NCBI GenBank assembly: GCA_035504415.1
Contig: DATJRY010000011.1
Location: 496,001 to 560,000, forward strand
Length of the DNA stretch: 64,000 nt
From: Candidatus Sulfotelmatobacter sp.
GTDB taxonomy: Bacteria > Vulcanimicrobiota > Vulcanimicrobiia > Vulcanimicrobiales > Vulcanimicrobiaceae
Direction: 5' to 3'
Shown here: positions 13,219 to 44,124 of the stretch, one piece after another
Layout: every line of letters begins with the position of its first letter
Position numbering within the stretch: position 1 is the stretch's first letter
Translations under genes and position numbers: made by a program
The notes under the pieces: model-generated
What the model saw: the letters and a program-made list of their open reading frames with translations, nothing else
Told to the model about the DNA's origin: nothing
Database searches by the model: none

Positions 13219-13290
13219 GTGGCGGTAGCTCAGTGGTAGAGCGAGGGCCCAGTAAGCCCGAGGCCGGGGGTTCGATTCCCCTCCGTCACC
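13219..13290 (+). tRNA. tRNA-like gene, predicted anticodon AGT (Thr), non-canonical
   Basis: Folds as a cloverleaf by hand. Acceptor GTGGCGG (13219-13225) pairs with CCGTCAC (13283-13289), with one G-T. The D-arm is GCTC/GAGC (13228-13242). The anticodon stem AGGGC/GCCCG has four pairs and an A-G mismatch at its base, with loop CCAGTAA (13249-13255). The variable loop is AGGCC and the T-arm GGGGG-TTCGATT-CCCCT. Oddities: the universally conserved T33 is C, AGT is a rare bacterial threonine anticodon, the discriminator is C, an eighth pair (G13218-C13290) extends the acceptor, and no CCA is encoded. It may be a decoy or degenerate tRNA and not a working one. Confidence 0.6.
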
Positions 13291-34973: not shown

Positions 34974-36584
34974 GTGCGCCGCGCGCTGGCCGCCATCGCC
35001 GCGATCGTGCTGATCGCGGCGAACCCGTCCGCCGCGGCGACGCGGCATCCGTGGACGGAACCCGGCCACCTGCGCATCGGCGTCGAACGCACGCTCGACA
35101 ACCTCGATCCGCTGCTCTCGGGCCAAGCCGGCGTCACCGACGTCGCGCAGTTCCTCTTCAGCGGGCTGATCCGCTACGACGACCGCGGCGAAGCGATCCC
35201 CGACGGCGCGACGGTGGTGCCGACCCGCGCGAACGGCGGCATCAGCCCCGACGGGAAGACGATCACCTATCACCTGCGGCCGAACCTGCGCTTCTCCGAC
35301 GGCGTCCCGGTGACGGCCGACGACGTCGTGTTCACTTGGCAGCAGGACATGAACCCGCGCAACAACGTGCCGTTCCACTTTCCCTACGATCAAGCGAAGA
35401 GCGTCGTCGCGCGCGACGCGCACACCGTCGTCGTCCACCTCTTCGCACCCTCGGCGCCGTTCGTCGCCGGCTTCTTCCGCTGCGGCACGCAGGGCGTGAT
35501 CCTGCCGAAGCATCTGCTCGCGGGCCACGACCTCAACCAGGACCCGTTCAGCCTGCACCCCGTCGGCAGCGGTCCCTTCATGGTCGCCGCCTACACGCCC
35601 AACGTCGTGCTCGAGATGGTCCCCAACCCGTACTGGTACGGCGGCAAGACGGGCCTGCAACGCGTCACCTACCGCATCATCACCAGCGAGAATACGCTGC
35701 TGATCGCGCTGCGCACCCACGACCTGGACTTCTACTGGGGCGCGCCCGAGCAGCAGCTCGCGCAGCTGCGGGCGACGCCCGACGTGCGTGTGGTCGCGCA
35801 CGCGTTCGACTCGTACGAGATGCTGGTCTTCGGCGCTCGCCGCCAACCGTTCTCCGATCCGGTGCTGCGGCACGCCGTCGCACGCGCCATCGATTGGAAG
35901 GCGATCGCACGCACCGTGTACCTCGACGTCGACCTCCCGGATTGGGGCGACATCTTCCCGCGCTCTTGGGCCTACACGCCGCAGCCCGATCCCAACGCCT
36001 ACGATCCGGCCGCCGCCCGCGCGCTGCTCGATCGCGCCGGCTGGAAGACCGGTCCCGATGGCGTCCGCGTGCGCGACGGCCGGCGCTTGACCGCCGAGAT
36101 CACGACGGTGGCGGGCGTGATCCCGCGCGAGAACGCCGAAGTGCTCATCCAGCAGCAGCTGCGCGCGGTCGGGATCGAGCTGACGGTGCGCAACGCGCCG
36201 GCCAACCTGTTGTTCGCGCCGATCGGCGCCGGCGGCCTGTTCGCCGGCGGAAAGTTCGACTTGGGAATCTTCGCCTGGACGCCGTTTCCCGATCCCGACG
36301 ACACGCAGACCGCCGGCCCCGACTCGCTGCCGCCGCACGGCGGTAACTATTCGGGCGTCGTCGACGCGGAGCTCGGCCGGCTGCAGCGCGCCGCCGACGC
36401 GACCTACGATCGCGCGCGGCGGCGCGCGCTCTACGCGCAGGTCGAACGCCGCCTCGGCGCGGCGCTCCCGTACCACACGCTCGTCTGGCGTGCGAACGTC
36501 GACGCATGGAACGACGACCTGAGCGGCGTACGTCCGGCCCCAGCCCTGAGCGACTTCTGGAACGTAGGAACCTGGACACTGTGA
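34974..36584 (+). CDS. Peptide ABC transporter substrate-binding protein (SBP family 5)
   Basis: 536 residues from GTG 34974. The signal peptide (ALAAIAAIVLIAANPSAAA) sends it outside the membrane. Family 5 pattern: LDNLDPLLSGQAGVTDVAQF, TITYHLRPNLRFSDGVPVTA, DDVVFTWQQ, VGSGPFMVAAY, RHAVARAIDWKAIARTVYL, and a C-terminal ALPYHTLVWRANVDAW. It captures peptides or similar solutes. No permease or ATPase genes adjoin it. It overlaps the DUF885 gene as GTGA, which suggests uptake coupled to peptide breakdown. Confidence 0.9.
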   Translation: MRRALAAIAAIVLIAANPSAAATRHPWTEPGHLRIGVERTLDNLDPLLSGQAGVTDVAQFLFSGLIRYDDRGEAIPDGATVVPTRANGGISPDGKTITYHLRPNLRFSDGVPVTADDVVFTWQQDMNPRNNVPFHFPYDQAKSVVARDAHTVVVHLFAPSAPFVAGFFRCGTQGVILPKHLLAGHDLNQDPFSLHPVGSGPFMVAAYTPNVVLEMVPNPYWYGGKTGLQRVTYRIITSENTLLIALRTHDLDFYWGAPEQQLAQLRATPDVRVVAHAFDSYEMLVFGARRQPFSDPVLRHAVARAIDWKAIARTVYLDVDLPDWGDIFPRSWAYTPQPDPNAYDPAAARALLDRAGWKTGPDGVRVRDGRRLTAEITTVAGVIPRENAEVLIQQQLRAVGIELTVRNAPANLLFAPIGAGGLFAGGKFDLGIFAWTPFPDPDDTQTAGPDSLPPHGGNYSGVVDAELGRLQRAADATYDRARRRALYAQVERRLGAALPYHTLVWRANVDAWNDDLSGVRPAPALSDFWNVGTWTL

Positions 36585-38281
36585 AACCCGCATGGATCCG
36601 TCGCAGCGACGAGCTCGCCCAAGCCGTCGTCGCCCTCTATACGCGCGCGTCGCCGGAGGCCAGCTCGCAGATGGGGCTGCCGCAGGCCGACGCCTTCACC
36701 GCCGACCTCGACACGGGCTGGCGCGCGCGTCTGGACGCCGACGTCGCGCACGCGAGCGCCGTCATGGCGGCCGCGCGGAGCAGCGAAACCGACCCGCGCG
36801 TCCTCGAGGACGTGACCATCCTCGAGCGGGCGATCGAGACGGTGCGCAGCGCGGTCGCCGTCGCCGATGCCCAGCTGCTCGAAGTGATCGACGTCGTGCG
36901 CACGGAGTTCGGCGGCCTGCGCGTCCTGCTCGACGAGCAGAACCCGCCCGAGCGCAAAGCGCTGGCGCTGGCGCGGCTGCGCCGTTACGCCGGCTTCGAG
37001 CCCGGCGTCCCCGCCTTCGCGCAAGCGGCCGAACGCGAGACGCGTACCCGGCTGGCGCGCACCGATCTGGTCGGACCGTACGTCGTCGAGGTGCAGACCA
37101 CGCTGGCGCTCGGCCCGGTGCTGCTCGACGGCATCGGCGAGATGCTGCGCGACTCGGCGCTGACCGGTTGGGAGGAGCCGTACGCGGCGTTGCGCACGCA
37201 GGCCGAGGCGTACCTGCGCTTCGTCGCCGCCGAGCTGTTGCCGCGTGCGCGCCACGATCACCGGCTCCCGCCCGACGTCTACGCGACCGCCCTCGTCCGC
37301 GTCGGCGTCGACATCGCGCCAGCCGAGCTGGCGACGCGCGCGCACGCCGCGTTCGACGCGCTGCAGGCGGAGATGCAAGCGCTCGCGCCGGCGGTCGCCG
37401 CCGCGCACGGCATCACCGCCACCGACTACCGCGACGTCATCCGGGCGCTCAAGCGCGAGCAGATCCACGGCGACGCCGAAGCGATCGTGGACTTCTATCG
37501 CCGCCGGCTCGAGGAGATCGAAGCCGTGGTACGGCGCGAACGCTTGGTGACGCTGCCCGACCGGCCCGCGCGCATCCGCATCGCCAGCCTCGCCGAGAGC
37601 GCCGAGATGCCGGCCGCGCACATGAACCCCGCGCCGCTGATCGGCAACACCGGACAGGTCGGCGAGTTCGTGCTTCCGCTCGACGTCCCGCCGGCACCCG
37701 GCAGCAACGGCACCGAACGCAGCGACGACTTCACCCACGACGCGGTGACCTGGACGCTGACCGCGCACGAAGCGCGGCCCGGGCACGAAGTGCAGTTCGA
37801 CCGCATGCTGGACGGCCAGCTCTCGCTGGCGCGCGCGGCGTTCGCCTTCAACTCGGTCAACGTCGAGGGCTGGGCGCTCTACGCCGAGCAGATCGTGCTG
37901 CCGTACATGCCGCCCGCCGGCCAGCTGTGCTCGCTGCAGATGCGGCTCCACCGCGCGGCGCGCGCGTTCCTCGACCCCGAGCTGCAGAGCGGCGCCATCA
38001 CGCCGGCCGACGCGCAGGCCTTCCTCGAGCGCGAGATCGTCTACTCACCGACCTTCGCCCGCAGCGAGGTCGAGCGGTACACCTTCCGCGCACCGGGTCA
38101 GGCGACGTCGTACTTCTACGGGTACACGACCTTCGTCGCGTTGCGCGCCGAGGTCGAAGCGCTGCTCGGCGCGCGCTTCGACGCCTGCGCGTTCCACGAT
38201 TTCATCCTCGACCAGGGACTGTTGCCGCCGGCGACGCTGCGTGAAGCGGTGCTGCGGCGCTTCGCCGCTCAAGAGAGGTAG
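36581..38281 (+). CDS. DUF885 family metallopeptidase-like protein
   Basis: 566 residues, starting at GTG 36581. The family's zinc motif is clear: LTAHEARPGHEVQFDRMLDG (HExxxGH), with the third ligand likely in FNSVNVEGWALYAEQI. The C-terminus GQATSYFYGYTTFVALRAEV is also diagnostic. There is no obvious signal peptide, so a cytoplasmic location is likely. DUF885 proteins are thought to be peptidases, but few are characterised. It is coupled to the peptide-binding protein upstream and overlaps the convergent diguanylate cyclase gene by 13 bases. Confidence 0.85.
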   Translation: MKPAWIRRSDELAQAVVALYTRASPEASSQMGLPQADAFTADLDTGWRARLDADVAHASAVMAAARSSETDPRVLEDVTILERAIETVRSAVAVADAQLLEVIDVVRTEFGGLRVLLDEQNPPERKALALARLRRYAGFEPGVPAFAQAAERETRTRLARTDLVGPYVVEVQTTLALGPVLLDGIGEMLRDSALTGWEEPYAALRTQAEAYLRFVAAELLPRARHDHRLPPDVYATALVRVGVDIAPAELATRAHAAFDALQAEMQALAPAVAAAHGITATDYRDVIRALKREQIHGDAEAIVDFYRRRLEEIEAVVRRERLVTLPDRPARIRIASLAESAEMPAAHMNPAPLIGNTGQVGEFVLPLDVPPAPGSNGTERSDDFTHDAVTWTLTAHEARPGHEVQFDRMLDGQLSLARAAFAFNSVNVEGWALYAEQIVLPYMPPAGQLCSLQMRLHRAARAFLDPELQSGAITPADAQAFLEREIVYSPTFARSEVERYTFRAPGQATSYFYGYTTFVALRAEVEALLGARFDACAFHDFILDQGLLPPATLREAVLRRFAAQER

Positions 38282-39513
38282 GCGCGCGAGCCGAAACGCG
38301 CGAGCGCGATACGGTCGCGGCCGTCGCGCTTGGCCGCGTACAGGGCCCGGTCGGCGGCCGCGAGCAGCGACATCGGCCGCGCCTGCAGCCGCGGCACCAG
38401 GCTCGCGACGCCGCCGCTGATCGTCACCACGCCCAGCGGGCTGGCGGGATGGCCCATCCCCAAGGTGCGGACAGCGGCGCGGATGCCGTCGACGACGCGG
38501 GCCGCGTCCTCGCGGTTGGCGCCGGGGAGCAGCACGACGAACTCTTCGCCGCCGTAGCGCGCGACGAAATCCTCCGGCCGCCGCAGCGACTTCGCGATGG
38601 TGTGCGCGACCCGGACCAGCACGCGGTCGCCTTGCGGGTGACCGCAGCTGTCGTTGTAGGCCTTGAACCAGTCGACGTCGAGGATCGCCAACGCCAGCGG
38701 CGTGCGCGCACGCGCGGCGCGGCGCCACTCTTGCTCGAAGCGCTGCTCGAAGGCACGGCGGTTCGCGATGCCGGTCAGACCGTCGTGCAGCGCCGCCGCG
38801 GCGTAGGCGTCCCGTTCGCCTTGCAGGCTGGCGGCACGGTCGGCCAAACCGCGGATGCGATACGCCAGCGCGACCGACAAGAAGATCGCTTCCCACGCCA
38901 CGCCCGCGCCGGCAGCCAGATCGGTCAGCGGCGTGCGCGGGATGGCACCGTACGCGCCGGAGAGCGCGACCGCGAAGCCGGCCACGACGCCGGCGAACGC
39001 GATGCTCGACCAGCGTGCCAGCGGGTTCCCCTTTTGCCACGCCGTGACGCCGGCGACGAACACGGCCAGCAAAAACGCCGTCGTCGCGAGCGGATCGAGC
39101 GCGTCGAACAGGCCCGCCCGCCGCAGGCCGTCCGGCGTCACCAGATACGCGAGCTTCACCACCACGACGCCCCCGTACATGACGCGCAGCAGCCACCACA
39201 GCCGCGGCGCGATGCGCGGCAGCTCGAGCAGCGTGCGCGCGAAGACGGTCACCAGCGCGAGGTAGACGACGAAGGTCAGCGTCCCGAGCGCGTCGCGGGC
39301 GCCGGGCGCGAGCACGGCGAGGGGCGACTGCACCAGGTCGTAGAGCGCGAACGCCAGCATCGCGGCGGCGTACCAGCCCGCCACGCGGTCGCGCAGCACG
39401 ACCGCCAGGATCGCGTTGAGCGATCCGAGCGCGACGATCATGCCGACGATGAACACGAACGCGACGGCGAGCGGCGCGACGAGCGGGTGAGCGGCGGTCA
39501 CCACGGTCCCCAC
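38269..39513 (-). CDS. Membrane diguanylate cyclase (GGEEF, I-site present)
   Basis: 414 residues from GTG 39513; inner GTG starts are possible. Seven membrane helices (residues about 10-225) resemble the 7TM sensor region of 7TMR-DISM proteins. A coiled linker leads to a GGDEF domain with DGLTGIANRRAFEQRF, DVDWFKAYNDSCGHPQGDRV and an intact ARYGGEEFVVLL. RPED lies five residues before GGEEF, so feedback inhibition by c-di-GMP is expected. It is the only clearly active cyclase in the window, beside three GGDEF-EAL proteins with altered GGDEF motifs. Confidence 0.92.
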   Translation of the reverse strand: MGTVVTAAHPLVAPLAVAFVFIVGMIVALGSLNAILAVVLRDRVAGWYAAAMLAFALYDLVQSPLAVLAPGARDALGTLTFVVYLALVTVFARTLLELPRIAPRLWWLLRVMYGGVVVVKLAYLVTPDGLRRAGLFDALDPLATTAFLLAVFVAGVTAWQKGNPLARWSSIAFAGVVAGFAVALSGAYGAIPRTPLTDLAAGAGVAWEAIFLSVALAYRIRGLADRAASLQGERDAYAAAALHDGLTGIANRRAFEQRFEQEWRRAARARTPLALAILDVDWFKAYNDSCGHPQGDRVLVRVAHTIAKSLRRPEDFVARYGGEEFVVLLPGANREDAARVVDGIRAAVRTLGMGHPASPLGVVTISGGVASLVPRLQARPMSLLAAADRALYAAKRDGRDRIALARFGSRAYLS

Positions 39514-39561
39514 GCGACACCGTTCGGCGAGCGCCGACGCCGCCCCCGTACCGCGCCGCGG

Positions 39562-39753
39562 CTAGGCGTGCTGCGGCGCCGTCTCGTCGTCGTCGAGCCG
39601 TGCACCGAGCACCGCCAGCGTCCAGCCGACGCGCAGCACGAGCGTTCCGAACGCGCGCCGCAGCGAGACGCTTCGCGCCTGCTTGAGCTCGCGCATGACG
39701 CGGCGCTGCCGCTCGTCGACGAGTGCGGACAAGACCAAAGGGTCCGTAAACAC
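39562..39753 (-). CDS. Small protein, 63 aa, start site controlled by a hairpin
   Basis: GTG 39753 has GGAGG seven bases upstream, but that GGAGG lies in the 3' arm of a 10-bp hairpin. The product starts VFTDPLVLSALVDERQRRVM, has a basic helix and one possible membrane helix (FGTLVLRVGWTLAVLGARL), and ends DDDETAPQHA. The family is not recognised. A frame extending to 39843 passes through the hairpin but starts at a TTG without a ribosome-binding site. Leader arrangement and composition make a regulated small membrane protein likely. Confidence 0.5.
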   Translation of the reverse strand: MFTDPLVLSALVDERQRRVMRELKQARSVSLRRAFGTLVLRVGWTLAVLGARLDDDETAPQHA

Positions 39754-39757
39754 GAAA

Positions 39758-39782
39758 AAACCTCCGTCGGGTACGGAGGTTT
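39758..39782 (-). terminator. Terminator-like hairpin that also covers a ribosome-binding site
   Basis: On the minus strand AAACCTCCGT, loop ACCCG, then ACGGAGGTTT with more T: a 10-bp stem plus T6. It works on paper as an intrinsic terminator for the SDR or leader transcript, and at the same time sequesters the GGAGG of the 63-aa ORF. Confidence 0.7.
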
Positions 39783-39814
39783 GCCAAGGAACGTCGGAAC
39801 GGACACCGTTCAGA

Positions 39815-39901
39815 TCATTCCGAGCGAACCTCCACGCAAACAATGGAACGACGCACGCCGCTGCCGAGCGATCGCGGAACGTCGAGCTGGAATCGGATCA
39901 T
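39815..39901 (-). CDS. Candidate 28-aa leader peptide
   Basis: ATG 39901 is preceded by AAAGGAGGAGA, one of the strongest ribosome-binding sites in the window. The peptide is MIRFQLDVPRSLGSGVRRSI followed by VCVEVRSE. It ends 32 bases before the hairpin. Its last codons (Val-Glu-Val) contain GGAGGTT (39827-39833), which can pair with the 5' arm of the hairpin, so translation of this peptide could decide which structure forms. Confidence 0.5.
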   Translation of the reverse strand: MIRFQLDVPRSLGSGVRRSIVCVEVRSE

Positions 39902-39955
39902 TGCGTCTCCTCCTTTCTGTTCGCGGCGCGCACCATCGCGCGCCGGCGGACTCGT

Positions 39956-39985
39956 ACTGTACCATGCGCGCGACGCAGGCGTCAA
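39956..39985 (-). promoter_or_regulatory. Promoter of the leader peptide unit
   Basis: TTGACG (complement of 39980-39985), an 18-base spacer and TACAGT (complement of 39956-39961) on the minus strand, about 55 bases ahead of the leader ATG and just after the SDR stop codon. Confidence 0.45.
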
Positions 39986-40001
39986 CCGCGCGTGGCCGCT
40001 T

Positions 40002-40799
40002 TTAGTGCGCCGACCAGCCGCCGTCGATCGCGATCGGCGCACCCGTGATCGAGATCGCGAAATCGCTGCACAGGAACGCGCACAGCGCGCCGACTTCGGC
40101 CGGGGCGATGAAGCGCTTCGAGGGCATCGCCTCGAGGAACGCGCGCTCGAGCGCCTCGTCCTCGCTGATCCCGCCGCCGTAGGAGCGCACGAGGTCGGCC
40201 GCCTGTCCGCGTACGAGATCGGTCATCACCGCGCCGGGGCAGATCGCGTTGGCGGTGATGTTGACCGGCGCGCCCTCGACCGCCGTCGCGCGGGTGAACC
40301 CGACCACGCCGTGCTTGGCCGCGATGTACGCGGCCTTGAACGGGCTGGCGATCAGGCCGTGCACGCTGGCGAGGTTGACGATTCGCCCGCCGCCGCGCGC
40401 GACCAAGTGCGGCCACGCCGCCTTGGTCGCGTAAAAGACGCTATCGAGATCGATGGTCCGCACGTTCTGCCAGCGGTCGACCGGAAAGTCCGCGATCGAC
40501 GAGATGAACTGCACCCCGGCGTTGTTCACCAGATGATCGAGGCCGCCGAAATCGGCCGCCGCGGCGTCGACGGTCGCGCGCACCGCGTCGGGGTCGCGCA
40601 CGTCGCACGCGTACGCGCGCGTCGTCGTGCCGGTCGCCGCGGCGATCGCGTGCGCGGTTTCCTGCGCCGCCGCCGCGTCGAGGTCGACGAGCGCGACCCG
40701 CGCGCCCGCCTGCGCGAGGGCCTCCGCGCAAGCGCGCCCAATCCCGCGTGCTGCACCCGTAACAAAGCTAACCCGGTCCTGTAGATCGATCCCAAGCAC
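40002..40799 (-). CDS. Short-chain dehydrogenase, 3-hydroxybutyrate dehydrogenase type
   Basis: 265 residues from GTG 40799. Cofactor motif VTGAARGIGRACAEAL, NNAG motif LVNNAGVQF, catalytic Ser-Tyr-Lys in VNLASVHGL and AAYIAAKHGVVGF. The C-terminal PSKRFIAPAEVGALCAFL and ISITGAPIAIDGGWSAH match D-3-hydroxybutyrate dehydrogenases, which interconvert acetoacetate and 3-hydroxybutyrate with NAD+. The family assignment is firm and the substrate probable. Its start codon is only 34 bases from that of the divergent ABC ATPase. Confidence 0.83.
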   Translation of the reverse strand: MLGIDLQDRVSFVTGAARGIGRACAEALAQAGARVALVDLDAAAAQETAHAIAAATGTTTRAYACDVRDPDAVRATVDAAAADFGGLDHLVNNAGVQFISSIADFPVDRWQNVRTIDLDSVFYATKAAWPHLVARGGGRIVNLASVHGLIASPFKAAYIAAKHGVVGFTRATAVEGAPVNITANAICPGAVMTDLVRGQAADLVRSYGGGISEDEALERAFLEAMPSKRFIAPAEVGALCAFLCSDFAISITGAPIAIDGGWSAH

Positions 40800-40833
40800 G
40801 GTCCTCGTCCTCCGAAGCAAGGAGAATCGCCCC

Positions 40834-41742
40834 GTGGGTAGCCTGGTCCTTTCCGGCGTCGCGCGATCCTTCGGTTCGGTGGCCGCAGTCCGCGACGTCT
40901 CCTTCACCGTCCCGAGCGGGATCACGTTCGGCCTGCTCGGTCCCAACGGCGCCGGCAAGACGACGACGATGCGGATGATCCTCGGCATCCTCATCCCCGA
41001 CCGCGGCACGGTGAGCTGGGACGGCCGGGCCGTCGACTTGCGCGTGCGCCGGCAGTTCGGCTACCTCCCCGAGGAGCGCGGACTGTACGCCAAGCTCAAG
41101 GTGCGCGACCAGATCGCGTACTTCGGGCGGCTGCACGGCGTGATGCCGCCCTACGACGCGCGGCGCGCCGAGGCGTGGATCGAGCGGCTGGGACTCCAAG
41201 CGTACGCGGACCGGCCGTGCGGCGAGCTCTCGAAAGGCAACCAGCAGAAGGTCCAAGTCGCCTGCGCCGCGCTGCATCAGCCGTCCTTGCTCGTCCTGGA
41301 CGAGCCCTTCTCCGGGCTCGATCCCGTCAACGCCGACATGCTGCTGGCGACGCTGCGCGAGCTGCAGCGCGAAGGCACCTCGCTGATCCTCTCCTCGCAC
41401 CAGATGTGGCAGATCGAGGACCTGTGCGAGCAGTTCTGCATCATCGCGGAGGGGACGGTACGAGCCGCCGGGACGCTGACCGAGCTGCGCGCGGGCTGGC
41501 CGACGCGCGTCGTGGAGGTCGAACCGGCGACGACCCCGTTGCGCGCGATCCTCGACGCGACGCCCGGCGCGCGCGCGATCGCCGGACCGAACGCCGGGAC
41601 GCTGACGTACGAGGTTCCGGCCGACCTCGACACCGCGGCGCTGCTGCGGGATTTGGTCGGCGCCGGCGCCATCACGCGGTTCGCGCGCCTCGAGCCGCGG
41701 CTCCAGGACGTCTACCTGCGCGCGATCGGAGCCGCGGCATGA
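40834..41742 (+). CDS. ABC transporter ATPase (NatA-like)
   Basis: 302 residues from GTG 40834 with AAGGAGAA upstream. Walker A GPNGAGKTTTMRMIL, Q-loop GYLPEERGLYAKLKV, signature LSKGNQQKVQVACAAL, Walker B LLVLDEPFSGLDPVNADML, H-loop SSHQMWQIEDL. The LSKGNQQK signature and the C-terminal DUF4162-like region (RVVEVEPATTPLRAIL) point to the NatA-type exporter group. Its stop overlaps the permease start as ATGA, so both form one transporter. Confidence 0.9.
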   Translation: MGSLVLSGVARSFGSVAAVRDVSFTVPSGITFGLLGPNGAGKTTTMRMILGILIPDRGTVSWDGRAVDLRVRRQFGYLPEERGLYAKLKVRDQIAYFGRLHGVMPPYDARRAEAWIERLGLQAYADRPCGELSKGNQQKVQVACAALHQPSLLVLDEPFSGLDPVNADMLLATLRELQREGTSLILSSHQMWQIEDLCEQFCIIAEGTVRAAGTLTELRAGWPTRVVEVEPATTPLRAILDATPGARAIAGPNAGTLTYEVPADLDTAALLRDLVGAGAITRFARLEPRLQDVYLRAIGAAA

Positions 41743-42956
41743 GCACGCTGGCGGTGATCTTCAACGCGGAGTTCGTGCGCCGCATCCGCTCGCGGCCCTA
41801 CCTGATCGGGACCGCGATCGGCGCGCTCGGCGTCGCCCTCATCGCGGTGATCCCCTCGTTCATGGTCCACGCCGTCAGCAGCTCGACGCGCAACCTCGTG
41901 CTGGTCGGTCCGCCGGCCCTCACGACGCCGGCCGGGGCGGCGCTGCGTCCCGACTTCAGCGTCGTCGCGGTCCTCCCACGGCTCGACGCGACGCCGACCC
42001 TCGCCTTTCTCGACGCGCACCGCCACGCCAGCGCGGTGGCGACGCTCTCGCGCACCGGTAGCCGCCTCCACGCGCTCGTCTACGCCCGCGACCCCTCGCT
42101 CTTCCCCTCGTCCTTCGCGCGCGATCTCGGTCCGCTGCAAATCGCGCTCGCGACCGGTGCGCCGCTCGAGAGCGTTCGCTCTCGCTTGACCGTGCCGATC
42201 GACGTGCGCGACGTCGCCGGACGCTTCGAGAACGCCGGCGAGGCCGATGCCGCGAAAGCCGTGGCGTACCTGTTCGTGCTCTTGCTCTATCTGGCGATCT
42301 TGCTCAACGCGCAGGCGATCTCGACCTCGGTCACCGAGGAGAAGACGAATCGCATCGCCGAGCTGCTCGTCGCCGCGGTCGATCCGGTGCAGCTGCTGAC
42401 GGCCAAGATCCTGGCCGCCACGGCGACCGGCTTCGTGCAGCTCGGCGTGTGGACGGCGATCGGCTTTCTCGCGGGCAGCAAGCTCACCGAGGGCTTCACG
42501 AACGGCGACGTCGGCGCGAACGCGGGCCCGCTGGCGATCAGCAGCAGCGAGATCCTCTTGTTCGTCGCGTTCTTCCTGGTCGGCTTCGCGCAGTACAGCG
42601 TCCTCTTCGCCGGGGGCGCGTCGCTGGTGAGCCGCACCGAAGACGTCGGCAGCATCACCGGTCCGCTCATGCTGCCGGTGGTCGGCGCGTTCGTGCTCGC
42701 GCAGCTGGGGATCCAGTTCCCCAACGGCCCGCTCATGTCGAGCGCGTCGTTCGTTCCGCTGCTCGCGCCGTTCGTGATGTTCACGCGCATCGCGGTGACG
42801 CCGGTCCCGGCCTGGCAGATCGCGCTCTCGCTGGCGATCAACGTCGCGGCCGCGATCCTGTTCGCGCTGATCGCGGGACGCGTCTACCGGGTCGGCATGC
42901 TGCTCTACGGCCGGCCGCCGTCGCTGCGCCAGATCGTCGCGGCCATGCGGGCCTGA
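41739..42956 (+). CDS. ABC-2 type permease (NatB-like)
   Basis: 405 residues, ATG 41739. One membrane helix near the N-terminus (YLIGTAIGALGVALIAVIPS), an extracellular domain of about 150 residues, then five or six helices. QAISTSVTEEKTNRIAELLV at about residue 190 is the hallmark of ABC-2/NatB permeases. It works with the upstream ATPase; related systems export sodium, drugs or lipids, and the substrate here is unknown. The next gene, an MFS transporter, starts 4 bases later. Confidence 0.87.
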   Translation: MSTLAVIFNAEFVRRIRSRPYLIGTAIGALGVALIAVIPSFMVHAVSSSTRNLVLVGPPALTTPAGAALRPDFSVVAVLPRLDATPTLAFLDAHRHASAVATLSRTGSRLHALVYARDPSLFPSSFARDLGPLQIALATGAPLESVRSRLTVPIDVRDVAGRFENAGEADAAKAVAYLFVLLLYLAILLNAQAISTSVTEEKTNRIAELLVAAVDPVQLLTAKILAATATGFVQLGVWTAIGFLAGSKLTEGFTNGDVGANAGPLAISSSEILLFVAFFLVGFAQYSVLFAGGASLVSRTEDVGSITGPLMLPVVGAFVLAQLGIQFPNGPLMSSASFVPLLAPFVMFTRIAVTPVPAWQIALSLAINVAAAILFALIAGRVYRVGMLLYGRPPSLRQIVAAMRA

Positions 42957-42960
42957 GGGC

Positions 42961-44124
42961 GTGCCGCGCGCGCTGCTGCCGATCCTGGCGATCACCTTCG
43001 TCGACATCCTCGGCTTCACGCTGCTGATCCCGCTGCTGCCGTTCTATGCGACCACGCTCGGCGCGTCGCCGGTGGTGGTCGGCGCGATCTACGCGACGGT
43101 GGCCGTCTGCTCGCTGCTCTCCTCGCCGCTGTGGGGACGGCTGAGCGACCGCATCGGGCGGCGCGGCGTGCTGCTGGCCGCCCAAGTCGCCGCGCTGATC
43201 GGCTTCGTGCTGCTGGCCTCCAGCAACACGTTGTGGATGATCTTCGTCGCGCGCGCGATCGAAGGGCTCGGCGGCGGGGGCCTGGGGATCACGCAGGCCT
43301 ACGTCACCGACGTCACCGCGCCCGAGCAGCGCGCGCGGGCGTTCGGCTTGGTCGGCGCGACCTTCGGGCTGGGCTTTCTGATCGGACCGGCGACGGCCGG
43401 GCTGCTGGTCCGCTTCGGCTACCACGTCCCGTTCGCGGCCGCCGCCGGCCTCGAGCTGATCACGGTCATGCTCACGCTCACGCTGCTGCCCGAGTCACGC
43501 GGCGCGGTCACCACGCTGCCGCCGCTGCGCGAGGTCAAACGCTCGCTCACGACCGCACCGCTGGGCCGGCTCGTGCTCACGCAGTTCGCGTTCTCGATCG
43601 GCTTCACGTCGTGGATCGGCGGCTTCGCCCTGTTCGCGCAGCGCGTGCTCGGGTTCGGGCCCGAGCGCACCTCGCAGGTCTACATCCTCTTCGCCGTGGT
43701 CGGCATCGTCGTGCAGGTCGCGCTGATCGGCCGGCTCGTCGCGTGGCTGGGTGAAGGCCGCGTCGCGCTGGCCGGTTTCGCGTGCGCGATCCTCGCCTAC
43801 GCGACGGTCGCCTTCATCGACCGGGCGGCGTTCTTCTACCCGTTCATCGTGCTGTGGTCGATCTCGGGCTCGCTGATTCGGCCGACGCTGGGATCGCTGA
43901 TCGCCGACGCGGCGCCCGGCGATCAGCGCGGGACGATCCTGAGCATCAACGACAGCCTCAACAACGTCGCGTTCATCGTCGGACCGCTCATCGCGACGCG
44001 CGTCTTGATGGCCGCGCCGCATTTGACCGGCATCGTGCCGGCCTTCTTCTCGGCGGTCGCGCTGGCGCTCGGACTCGGGCTGCTGATGCGCGCGCCGCGC
44101 GCCGAAGGACGGCTGGCGACGTGA
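42961..44124 (+). CDS. MFS transporter, TetA/multidrug-type (DHA1)
   Basis: 387 residues from GTG 42961. Twelve membrane helices. Motif A between helices 2 and 3 is WGRLSDRIGRRGVLLAA. The helix-1 start LPILAITFVDILGFTLLIPL and the GPATAGLL stretch in helix 5 are typical of the TetA-like DHA1 proton antiporters. It follows the ABC exporter and overlaps the phosphoesterase start, so the three to four genes are probably one operon. Substrate unknown. Confidence 0.88.
   Translation: MPRALLPILAITFVDILGFTLLIPLLPFYATTLGASPVVVGAIYATVAVCSLLSSPLWGRLSDRIGRRGVLLAAQVAALIGFVLLASSNTLWMIFVARAIEGLGGGGLGITQAYVTDVTAPEQRARAFGLVGATFGLGFLIGPATAGLLVRFGYHVPFAAAAGLELITVMLTLTLLPESRGAVTTLPPLREVKRSLTTAPLGRLVLTQFAFSIGFTSWIGGFALFAQRVLGFGPERTSQVYILFAVVGIVVQVALIGRLVAWLGEGRVALAGFACAILAYATVAFIDRAAFFYPFIVLWSISGSLIRPTLGSLIADAAPGDQRGTILSINDSLNNVAFIVGPLIATRVLMAAPHLTGIVPAFFSAVALALGLGLLMRAPRAEGRLAT

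Follow-up and report, generated by a model that had tools for sequence, protein, structure and literature searches.

A conserved leader ORF and candidate ribosome-mediated attenuator ahead of a small arginine-rich protein gene in Vulcanimicrobium-like Eremiobacterota

The trp and ilvB leaders sense their own amino acids. In the Corynebacterium ilvBNC leader (PMC11857589, PMC10272879) and in trp/phe-type attenuators, a leader ORF is combined with a competing antiterminator and intrinsic terminator, the progress of the ribosome decides between them, and the terminator is located ahead of the first gene. A different logic is known from Sinorhizobium meliloti, where an upstream ORF (uORF) attenuates the gene for a small arginine-rich protein (duf1127_1) and reports translation status or ribosome availability; loss of translation turns the gene on, and termination was proposed to be Rho-dependent via C-rich codons of the uORF (PMC12218461). 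The uORF of Escherichia coli toiL-topAI governs an RNA structure that shuts the downstream ribosome-binding site and is proposed to sense many translation stresses; translation is repressed first, and Rho then terminates transcription within the gene (PMC12121999). For Eremiobacterota, no attenuator turned up in the papers and RNA families searched, and the literature search found no paper tying this group to leader peptides.

The leader described here shares with ilvBNC and the trp/phe-type attenuators the ORF, the competing antiterminator and intrinsic terminator, a predicted decision by ribosome progress and the position of the terminator ahead of the first gene. It differs from them in lacking a cognate amino-acid run, in preceding a small protein of no known family rather than an amino-acid enzyme, and in a third segment that doubles as the Shine-Dalgarno sequence of its target; similarity to them in sequence is not expected. 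The nearest systems as regards logic are the DUF1127 uORF of S. meliloti and toiL, both of which differ in termination mechanism and target. Dependence on a uORF, a small Arg-rich target, a proposed response to translation status instead of one amino acid and a predicted on state without translation recall duf1127_1, whereas the intrinsic 10-bp hairpin with U6 and the three-segment switch do not; with toiL-topAI it has in common a uORF-controlled structure closing a downstream ribosome-binding site, but its terminator is intrinsic and lies before the start codon of an unrelated target. The original prediction could assign the arrangement to no described family; its plan proved to be that of a classical ribosome-mediated attenuator, while its place and target are new. 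The leader is real and conserved, and it is most likely a working attenuator, a switch of familiar type in a novel setting.

The window, i.e. the whole 64-kb stretch of DNA analysed, is part of one contig (C11) of a 4.17-Mb genome. The leader occupies positions 39985-39753 of its minus strand, and the locus comprises the following features:

39985-39956, minus strand: extended -10 promoter, TTGACG-N18-TACAGT with TG upstream (TG-n-TACAGT), from a consensus scan
39985-39980, minus strand: TTGACG of this promoter, read from the sequence; TACAGT ends at 39956
39905-39915, minus strand: ribosome-binding site of the leader, AAAGGAGGAGA, read from the sequence
39815-39901, minus strand: leader ORF, MIRFQLDVPRSLGSGVRRSIVCVEVRSE*, 28 codons plus TGA, from sequence and ORF reading
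39774-39836, minus strand: antiterminator rod formed by pairing of segments 1 and 2, with the leader stop codon inside (folding, shuffles, covariance model)
39827-39833, minus strand: segment 1, GGAGGTT, its first base 19 nt ahead of where the leader stop codon ends
39775-39781, minus strand: segment 2, AACCTCC, covarying with segment 1
39758-39782, minus strand: terminator and Shine-Dalgarno-hiding hairpin in which segments 2 and 3 pair over 10 bp, -14.1 kcal/mol (folding)
39761-39765, minus strand: segment 3, GGAGG, also the Shine-Dalgarno sequence of the small ORF (sequence)
39755-39760, minus strand: U6 tract of the intrinsic terminator, six T in the sequence
39562-39753, minus strand: small Arg-rich protein of 63 aa with GTG start at 39753, predicted to form a single long helix (ORF, profile, AlphaFold)
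38269-39513, minus strand: 7TMR-DISM plus GGDEF diguanylate cyclase (Pfam), 48 nt downstream of the small ORF

The promoter, the 28-aa leader ORF with its strong ribosome-binding site, the 10-bp hairpin with T6 and the GTG at 39753 are thus all present as predicted. On the minus strand, AAAGGAGGAG is followed by the ATG at 39901, 28 codons and the TGA ending at 39815, and GGAGGTTTTTT stands immediately ahead of the GTG of the small ORF. The GGAGG of the next start, which the terminator-like hairpin had been claimed to hide, is located within this hairpin. The leader promoter begins right past the stop codon of an SDR gene (end at 40002), and a scan of both strands of the surrounding 7.5 kb (36000-43500) yielded it as the sole promoter-like site, compared to 0.2 expected in shuffles. 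Terminator-like hairpins by themselves were not in excess in the region scanned (2 found versus 2.6 expected by chance), so that the case for the leader rests on comparison among relatives. An Rfam search of the whole window detected no cis-regulatory RNA at gathering score; the sole match was one tRNA gene (13219-13290).

Relatives were searched with a pattern describing the hairpin fused to a start codon, with segment 1 left out. Exactly one match per genome was obtained in 13 of 99 genomes of the family, compared to none with the reversed pattern, and a pattern with all three segments retrieved the identical 13 genomes among 117 genomes of the class (phylum Eremiobacterota). The carriers comprise 10 of the 11 members of the genus (window included), both members of genus g19 and one of a third genus, g53; named records with the element belong to Candidatus Eremiobacterota/WPS-2, and one carrier (G005) is the cultured Vulcanimicrobium alpinum WC8-2 from the same genus (genome: PMC9758169; AP025523), where the locus lies at ~220.5-221.4 kb. 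A DNA search of the whole region against relatives produced mostly chance matches, though its hairpin matches did reveal orthologous loci.

Loss of the leader ORF or of segment 1 in relatives had been named as a refutation; both are kept in all 13. GGAGG is found near the end of the leader ORF at every site hit by the hairpin pattern, even though segment 1 was absent from this pattern and the chance of GGAGG at that position is 1-9 % per sequence. The ORF spans 26-34 codons and is preceded by a Shine-Dalgarno-like site in each case (AAAGGAG-like in 11; GAGAGGAGG and AAAGGGG in the remaining two); a promoter region is present, with a TTGAC/TGnTA-type promoter visible in most relatives. The start of segment 1 lies 19 nt from the end of the leader stop in 11 genomes and 24 nt in two, in which a frame shift upstream of segment 1 displaces the stop, and the fixed distance holds across the three stop codons TGA, TAA and TAG. 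CCTCC follows segment 1 at 44-53 nt, and the fusion of GGAGG, U6 and start codon (GGAGGTTTTTT[TC](G/A)TG) is invariant (13/13). In g19 (L025/L026), the U tract is followed by a GTG and then a stop, forming a two-codon ORF (GTG-nnn-TGA); the small ORF there uses an ATG located 5 nt past this GTG, and the overlap of this ATG with the stop of the two-codon ORF (ATGA) suggests start-stop coupling.

A member of one and the same small-protein family always follows the leader, whether or not the SDR gene is present. The SDR gene adjoins the leader in eight of the 13 genomes, is ~500 nt off in G004 and 1.7 kb away in G002, and was not found near the leader in the other three. Since both the SDR gene and the downstream neighbours vary, the conserved unit as judged by comparison consists of leader and small ORF.

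Pairing of the GGAGGTT at the leader end with AACCTCC, as proposed, does form in the predicted nascent RNA; it goes beyond the 7 bp originally envisaged and is part of a rod of ~60 nt, within which the stop codon of the leader is contained. Per-sequence folding yielded a continuous rod from segment 1 to segment 2 in all 13 genomes, with minimum free energies of -25 to -32.5 kcal/mol and z-scores of -2.7 to -5.8 against dinucleotide shuffles. The rod of the window is the strongest (-32.5 kcal/mol, z -5.8, 0 of 300 shuffles), and z remained at -4.0 when GGAGG and CCTCC were fixed and the linker alone was shuffled. Per-sequence folding and a within-genus alignment replaced RNAalifold, which on 13 MAFFT-aligned sequences recovered the outer 7 pairs only, due to poor alignment between genera.

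Covariation of the segments, which had been suggested as a check, was found for the 1:2 pairing. The helix is kept with differing bases, namely CATCA:TGATG in most of the genus, GCG:CGC in G010, CACG:CGTG in G120 and GC:GC in the window, and the pair adjoining GGAGG:CCTCC is retained throughout (C-G in 8, T-A in 4, T-G in 1). The nine other genus members (window left out) can be aligned well. In their alignment, 92.9 % of cells are paired by the rod, a share that falls to 25-49 % if the structure is shifted by 1-3 columns, and three pairs are altered on both sides; as all examples derive from three genera of one family, independent changes are few. A covariance model (R1) built from the same nine sequences without the window had its best match in the 64 kb at the window's own element (25.7 bits), at the right place and on the right strand. 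From folding and covariance, antiterminator and intrinsic terminator are mutually exclusive, sharing segment 2.

Sequence comparison thus provides the evidence for the anatomy and its conservation, and for the covarying 1:2 rod; the ribosome-position switch is computed. In the simulation, a ribosome was set at each leader codon, the RNA was masked to 14 nt past the P site, and the remainder was folded at equilibrium. With the ribosome at least about five codons before the Glu codon of segment 1, the RNA preceding segment 3 is predicted to pair 1:2 (P near 1) in 13/13; with the ribosome one or two codons further on, stop codon included, 2:3 forms instead, likewise in 13/13. Without a ribosome, the nascent RNA is computed to form 1:2 in every case (P 0.99-1.00). 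The postulated alternative between 1:2 and 2:3 is accordingly reproduced by folding, with masking of segment 1 giving 2:3. The choice, however, does not fall on the last Val-Glu-Val codons as proposed: the computed decision is located ~4-5 codons before the ribosome would reach the Glu codon of segment 1, and a ribosome on the final Val-Glu-Val codons yields the off state only. For the window sequence, final equilibrium without a ribosome favours 2:3 (0.97), and read-through there would therefore need the rod to be formed first, by a kinetic head start; the order of transcription permits the rod to form ahead of 2:3.

Taken together, we consider it likely that the element attenuates transcription in a ribosome-mediated manner, backed up by a lock on translation, and that slow or absent translation of the leader relieves this attenuation. 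The modelled default is off with prompt leader translation and on otherwise. During prompt translation of the 26-34-codon leader, the ribosome at its end would cover segment 1 and leave segment 2 free for segment 3, so that the polymerase would stop at the U tract before the small ORF; in any read-through RNA, the Shine-Dalgarno sequence would be shut by the hairpin, and off would thus act twice. A leader ribosome halted at or before a conserved Arg (SR/RR) region, or the lack of a loaded ribosome, would allow the long 1:2 rod to form around the leader stop codon, the terminator would be barred and the small protein made, together with a co-encoded metallophosphoesterase in most relatives. We infer that the switch operates in vivo and that it responds to slowed translation in general rather than to one amino acid.

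As to this signal, the predicted absence of an amino-acid run holds for all 13 leaders. Given the high G+C content of these genomes, the leader codons are unusually rare ones (GC3 0.59, compared to 0.92 for the genes of the window), and CGA plus CGT account for 32 of 45 Arg codons as opposed to 9 % in window genes, an excess that may partly derive from the lower G+C content of the leaders. An Arg codon (SR, RR) is located at or just upstream of the computed switch point in 13/13, and in the two frame-shifted relatives SR/RR remains in frame upstream of the shift, while everything after it is altered. The leader is probably a sensor of general translation stress or of Arg-tRNA; the best fit is a sensor of general translation speed in which tRNA-Arg possibly counts more than other tRNAs. 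Candidate general signals are starvation, few charged Arg-tRNAs, ribosome-targeting drugs and ribosome shortage. Our tentative proposal, which may or may not hold, is a dedicated translation-status sensor of Vulcanimicrobium-like Eremiobacterota, in which the leader, largely made up of rare codons, would set the pace of the ribosome relative to that of RNA polymerase, and slower translation of whatever cause, not the lack of one amino acid, would switch on the small Arg-rich helical protein.

The placement of the Arg codon at the switch point, the retention of SR/RR in frame and the content of Arg (12 % of codons in the leaders and 8 % in the genes of the window, in the leaders mostly as rare CGA/CGT) are also what an Arg-specific attenuator would display, with CGT/CGA at ~-17 to -35 from segment 1 and CGA at codon 3 sensing charged tRNA-Arg. 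This reading is nevertheless unlikely, as there is no run of Arg codons, the target is neither an Arg enzyme nor a synthetase, and Ser, Cys, Met and Asn are enriched in the leaders as well. Somewhat more doubtful still is a drug-responsive leader, in which an antibiotic stalls the ribosome at a peptide motif and thereby turns the operon on. The wiring is the same as that of vmlR, tlrB and toiL/topAI (PMC9226507, PMC6851288, PMC12121999), and a general translation sensor would answer drugs too. No conserved arrest peptide was found, however: the leader C-termini lack conservation at the amino-acid level and are altered by the frame shift in two relatives, and an arrest motif was rejected on these grounds. 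Nor does the target match a resistance family or any Pfam/NCBIfam family, and what follows the leader is neither a resistance nor a translation-factor gene but the small protein and then, in 10/13, a metallophosphoesterase (PF12850).

Selection of the structure by a protein or metabolite, as in a riboswitch or protein-binding leader with an incidental ORF, would be in keeping with the rod being a long conserved structure. It is very improbable given that no Rfam family matched at curated thresholds, that the conserved unpaired core typical of riboswitches is absent, and that a strong ribosome-binding site is always followed by an ORF that varies little in size and ends inside the rod (13/13). 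Even though terminator-like sites are expected by chance in the region, the idea that the hairpin simply terminates a short leader mRNA or the SDR transcript, with an incidental likeness of segment 1, is hardly credible in view of the element's own promoter past the SDR stop, its persistence wherever the SDR gene is distant or not found nearby, the compensatory changes in the conserved rod, the fixed spacing of segment 1 to the stop and the GGAGG-U6-start fusion.

The target of the proposed attenuator belongs to a previously undescribed protein family. A profile (A2) detected clear relatives, among the family genomes, in the same 13 leader-bearing genomes only, with one more marginal match (E 9.5e-4). 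No family in Pfam or NCBIfam matched the small protein; in Pfam, none of 12 members reached the curated score, DUF1127 included. Members are 60-68 aa long, apart from the truncated G003 copy, and contain 8-13 Arg and at most 1 Lys. AlphaFold predicts one helix for the window protein (residues 5-55, mean pLDDT 81). The designation as membrane-like holds in part only: peak hydropathy varies from 0.3 to 2.4 among members, and membrane association is possible in most of them. Values of pN/pS are 0.27-0.77 when the window copy is left out of the genus comparison and rise to 0.77-0.96 when this copy is compared with the others. In G003 (L031/L044), the small ORF is cut to 27 aa with the leader intact, and the phosphoesterase was not found in this genome (74 % complete); the locus is possibly decaying or misassembled. 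This truncation and the pN/pS values of the window copy count against the proposed reading.

In most relatives, the metallophosphoesterase takes the place of the window's 7TMR-DISM/GGDEF gene, which is possibly co-transcribed with the small ORF in the window's genome only. The metallophosphoesterase was rejected as the conserved target: in other genera it stands alone with neither leader nor small ORF, and in the window's genome it is located elsewhere, on another contig (L051, G000:C5:128097-128597). No leader is found there, and the gene stands behind a transporter gene whose translation reads like an RND efflux pump.

Conservation of the leader in three genera points to the unnamed small-protein family as one made when translation fails, and the cultured carrier V. 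alpinum WC8-2 makes the leader testable. With S. meliloti DUF1127 as a second case, the locus suggests that coupling to translation status has arisen repeatedly for small Arg-rich proteins. Were the reading as a translation-status sensor true, the small protein would be a candidate stress or ribosome/membrane effector in a circuit analogous to that of S. meliloti DUF1127 and independently evolved.

A three-segment pattern was also encountered outside the phylum. It is strikingly common in Microgenomates/Patescibacteria (L091, L095, L104, L115, L117, L128, L129, L133, L137, L143 and others), where an aromatic-residue leader precedes DAHP synthase (L137), a branched-chain leader precedes acetolactate synthase (L128), and unknown small proteins are preceded by such leaders too; a literature search found no paper on three-segment leaders of these groups. 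The Microgenomates leaders (L137, L128) likewise combine a GGAGG copy near the leader end, CCTCC, and GGAGG-U6-7 before the next gene. Unlike the window leader, their frames contain aromatic or branched-chain residues matching the target, and they occur in low-G+C genomes of a distant phylum; the likeness is likely convergent. In Vibrio (L160, L188), the pattern coincides with the leader of a pheA-type gene (chorismate mutase/prephenate dehydratase-like), and these matches can serve as a positive control for the search.
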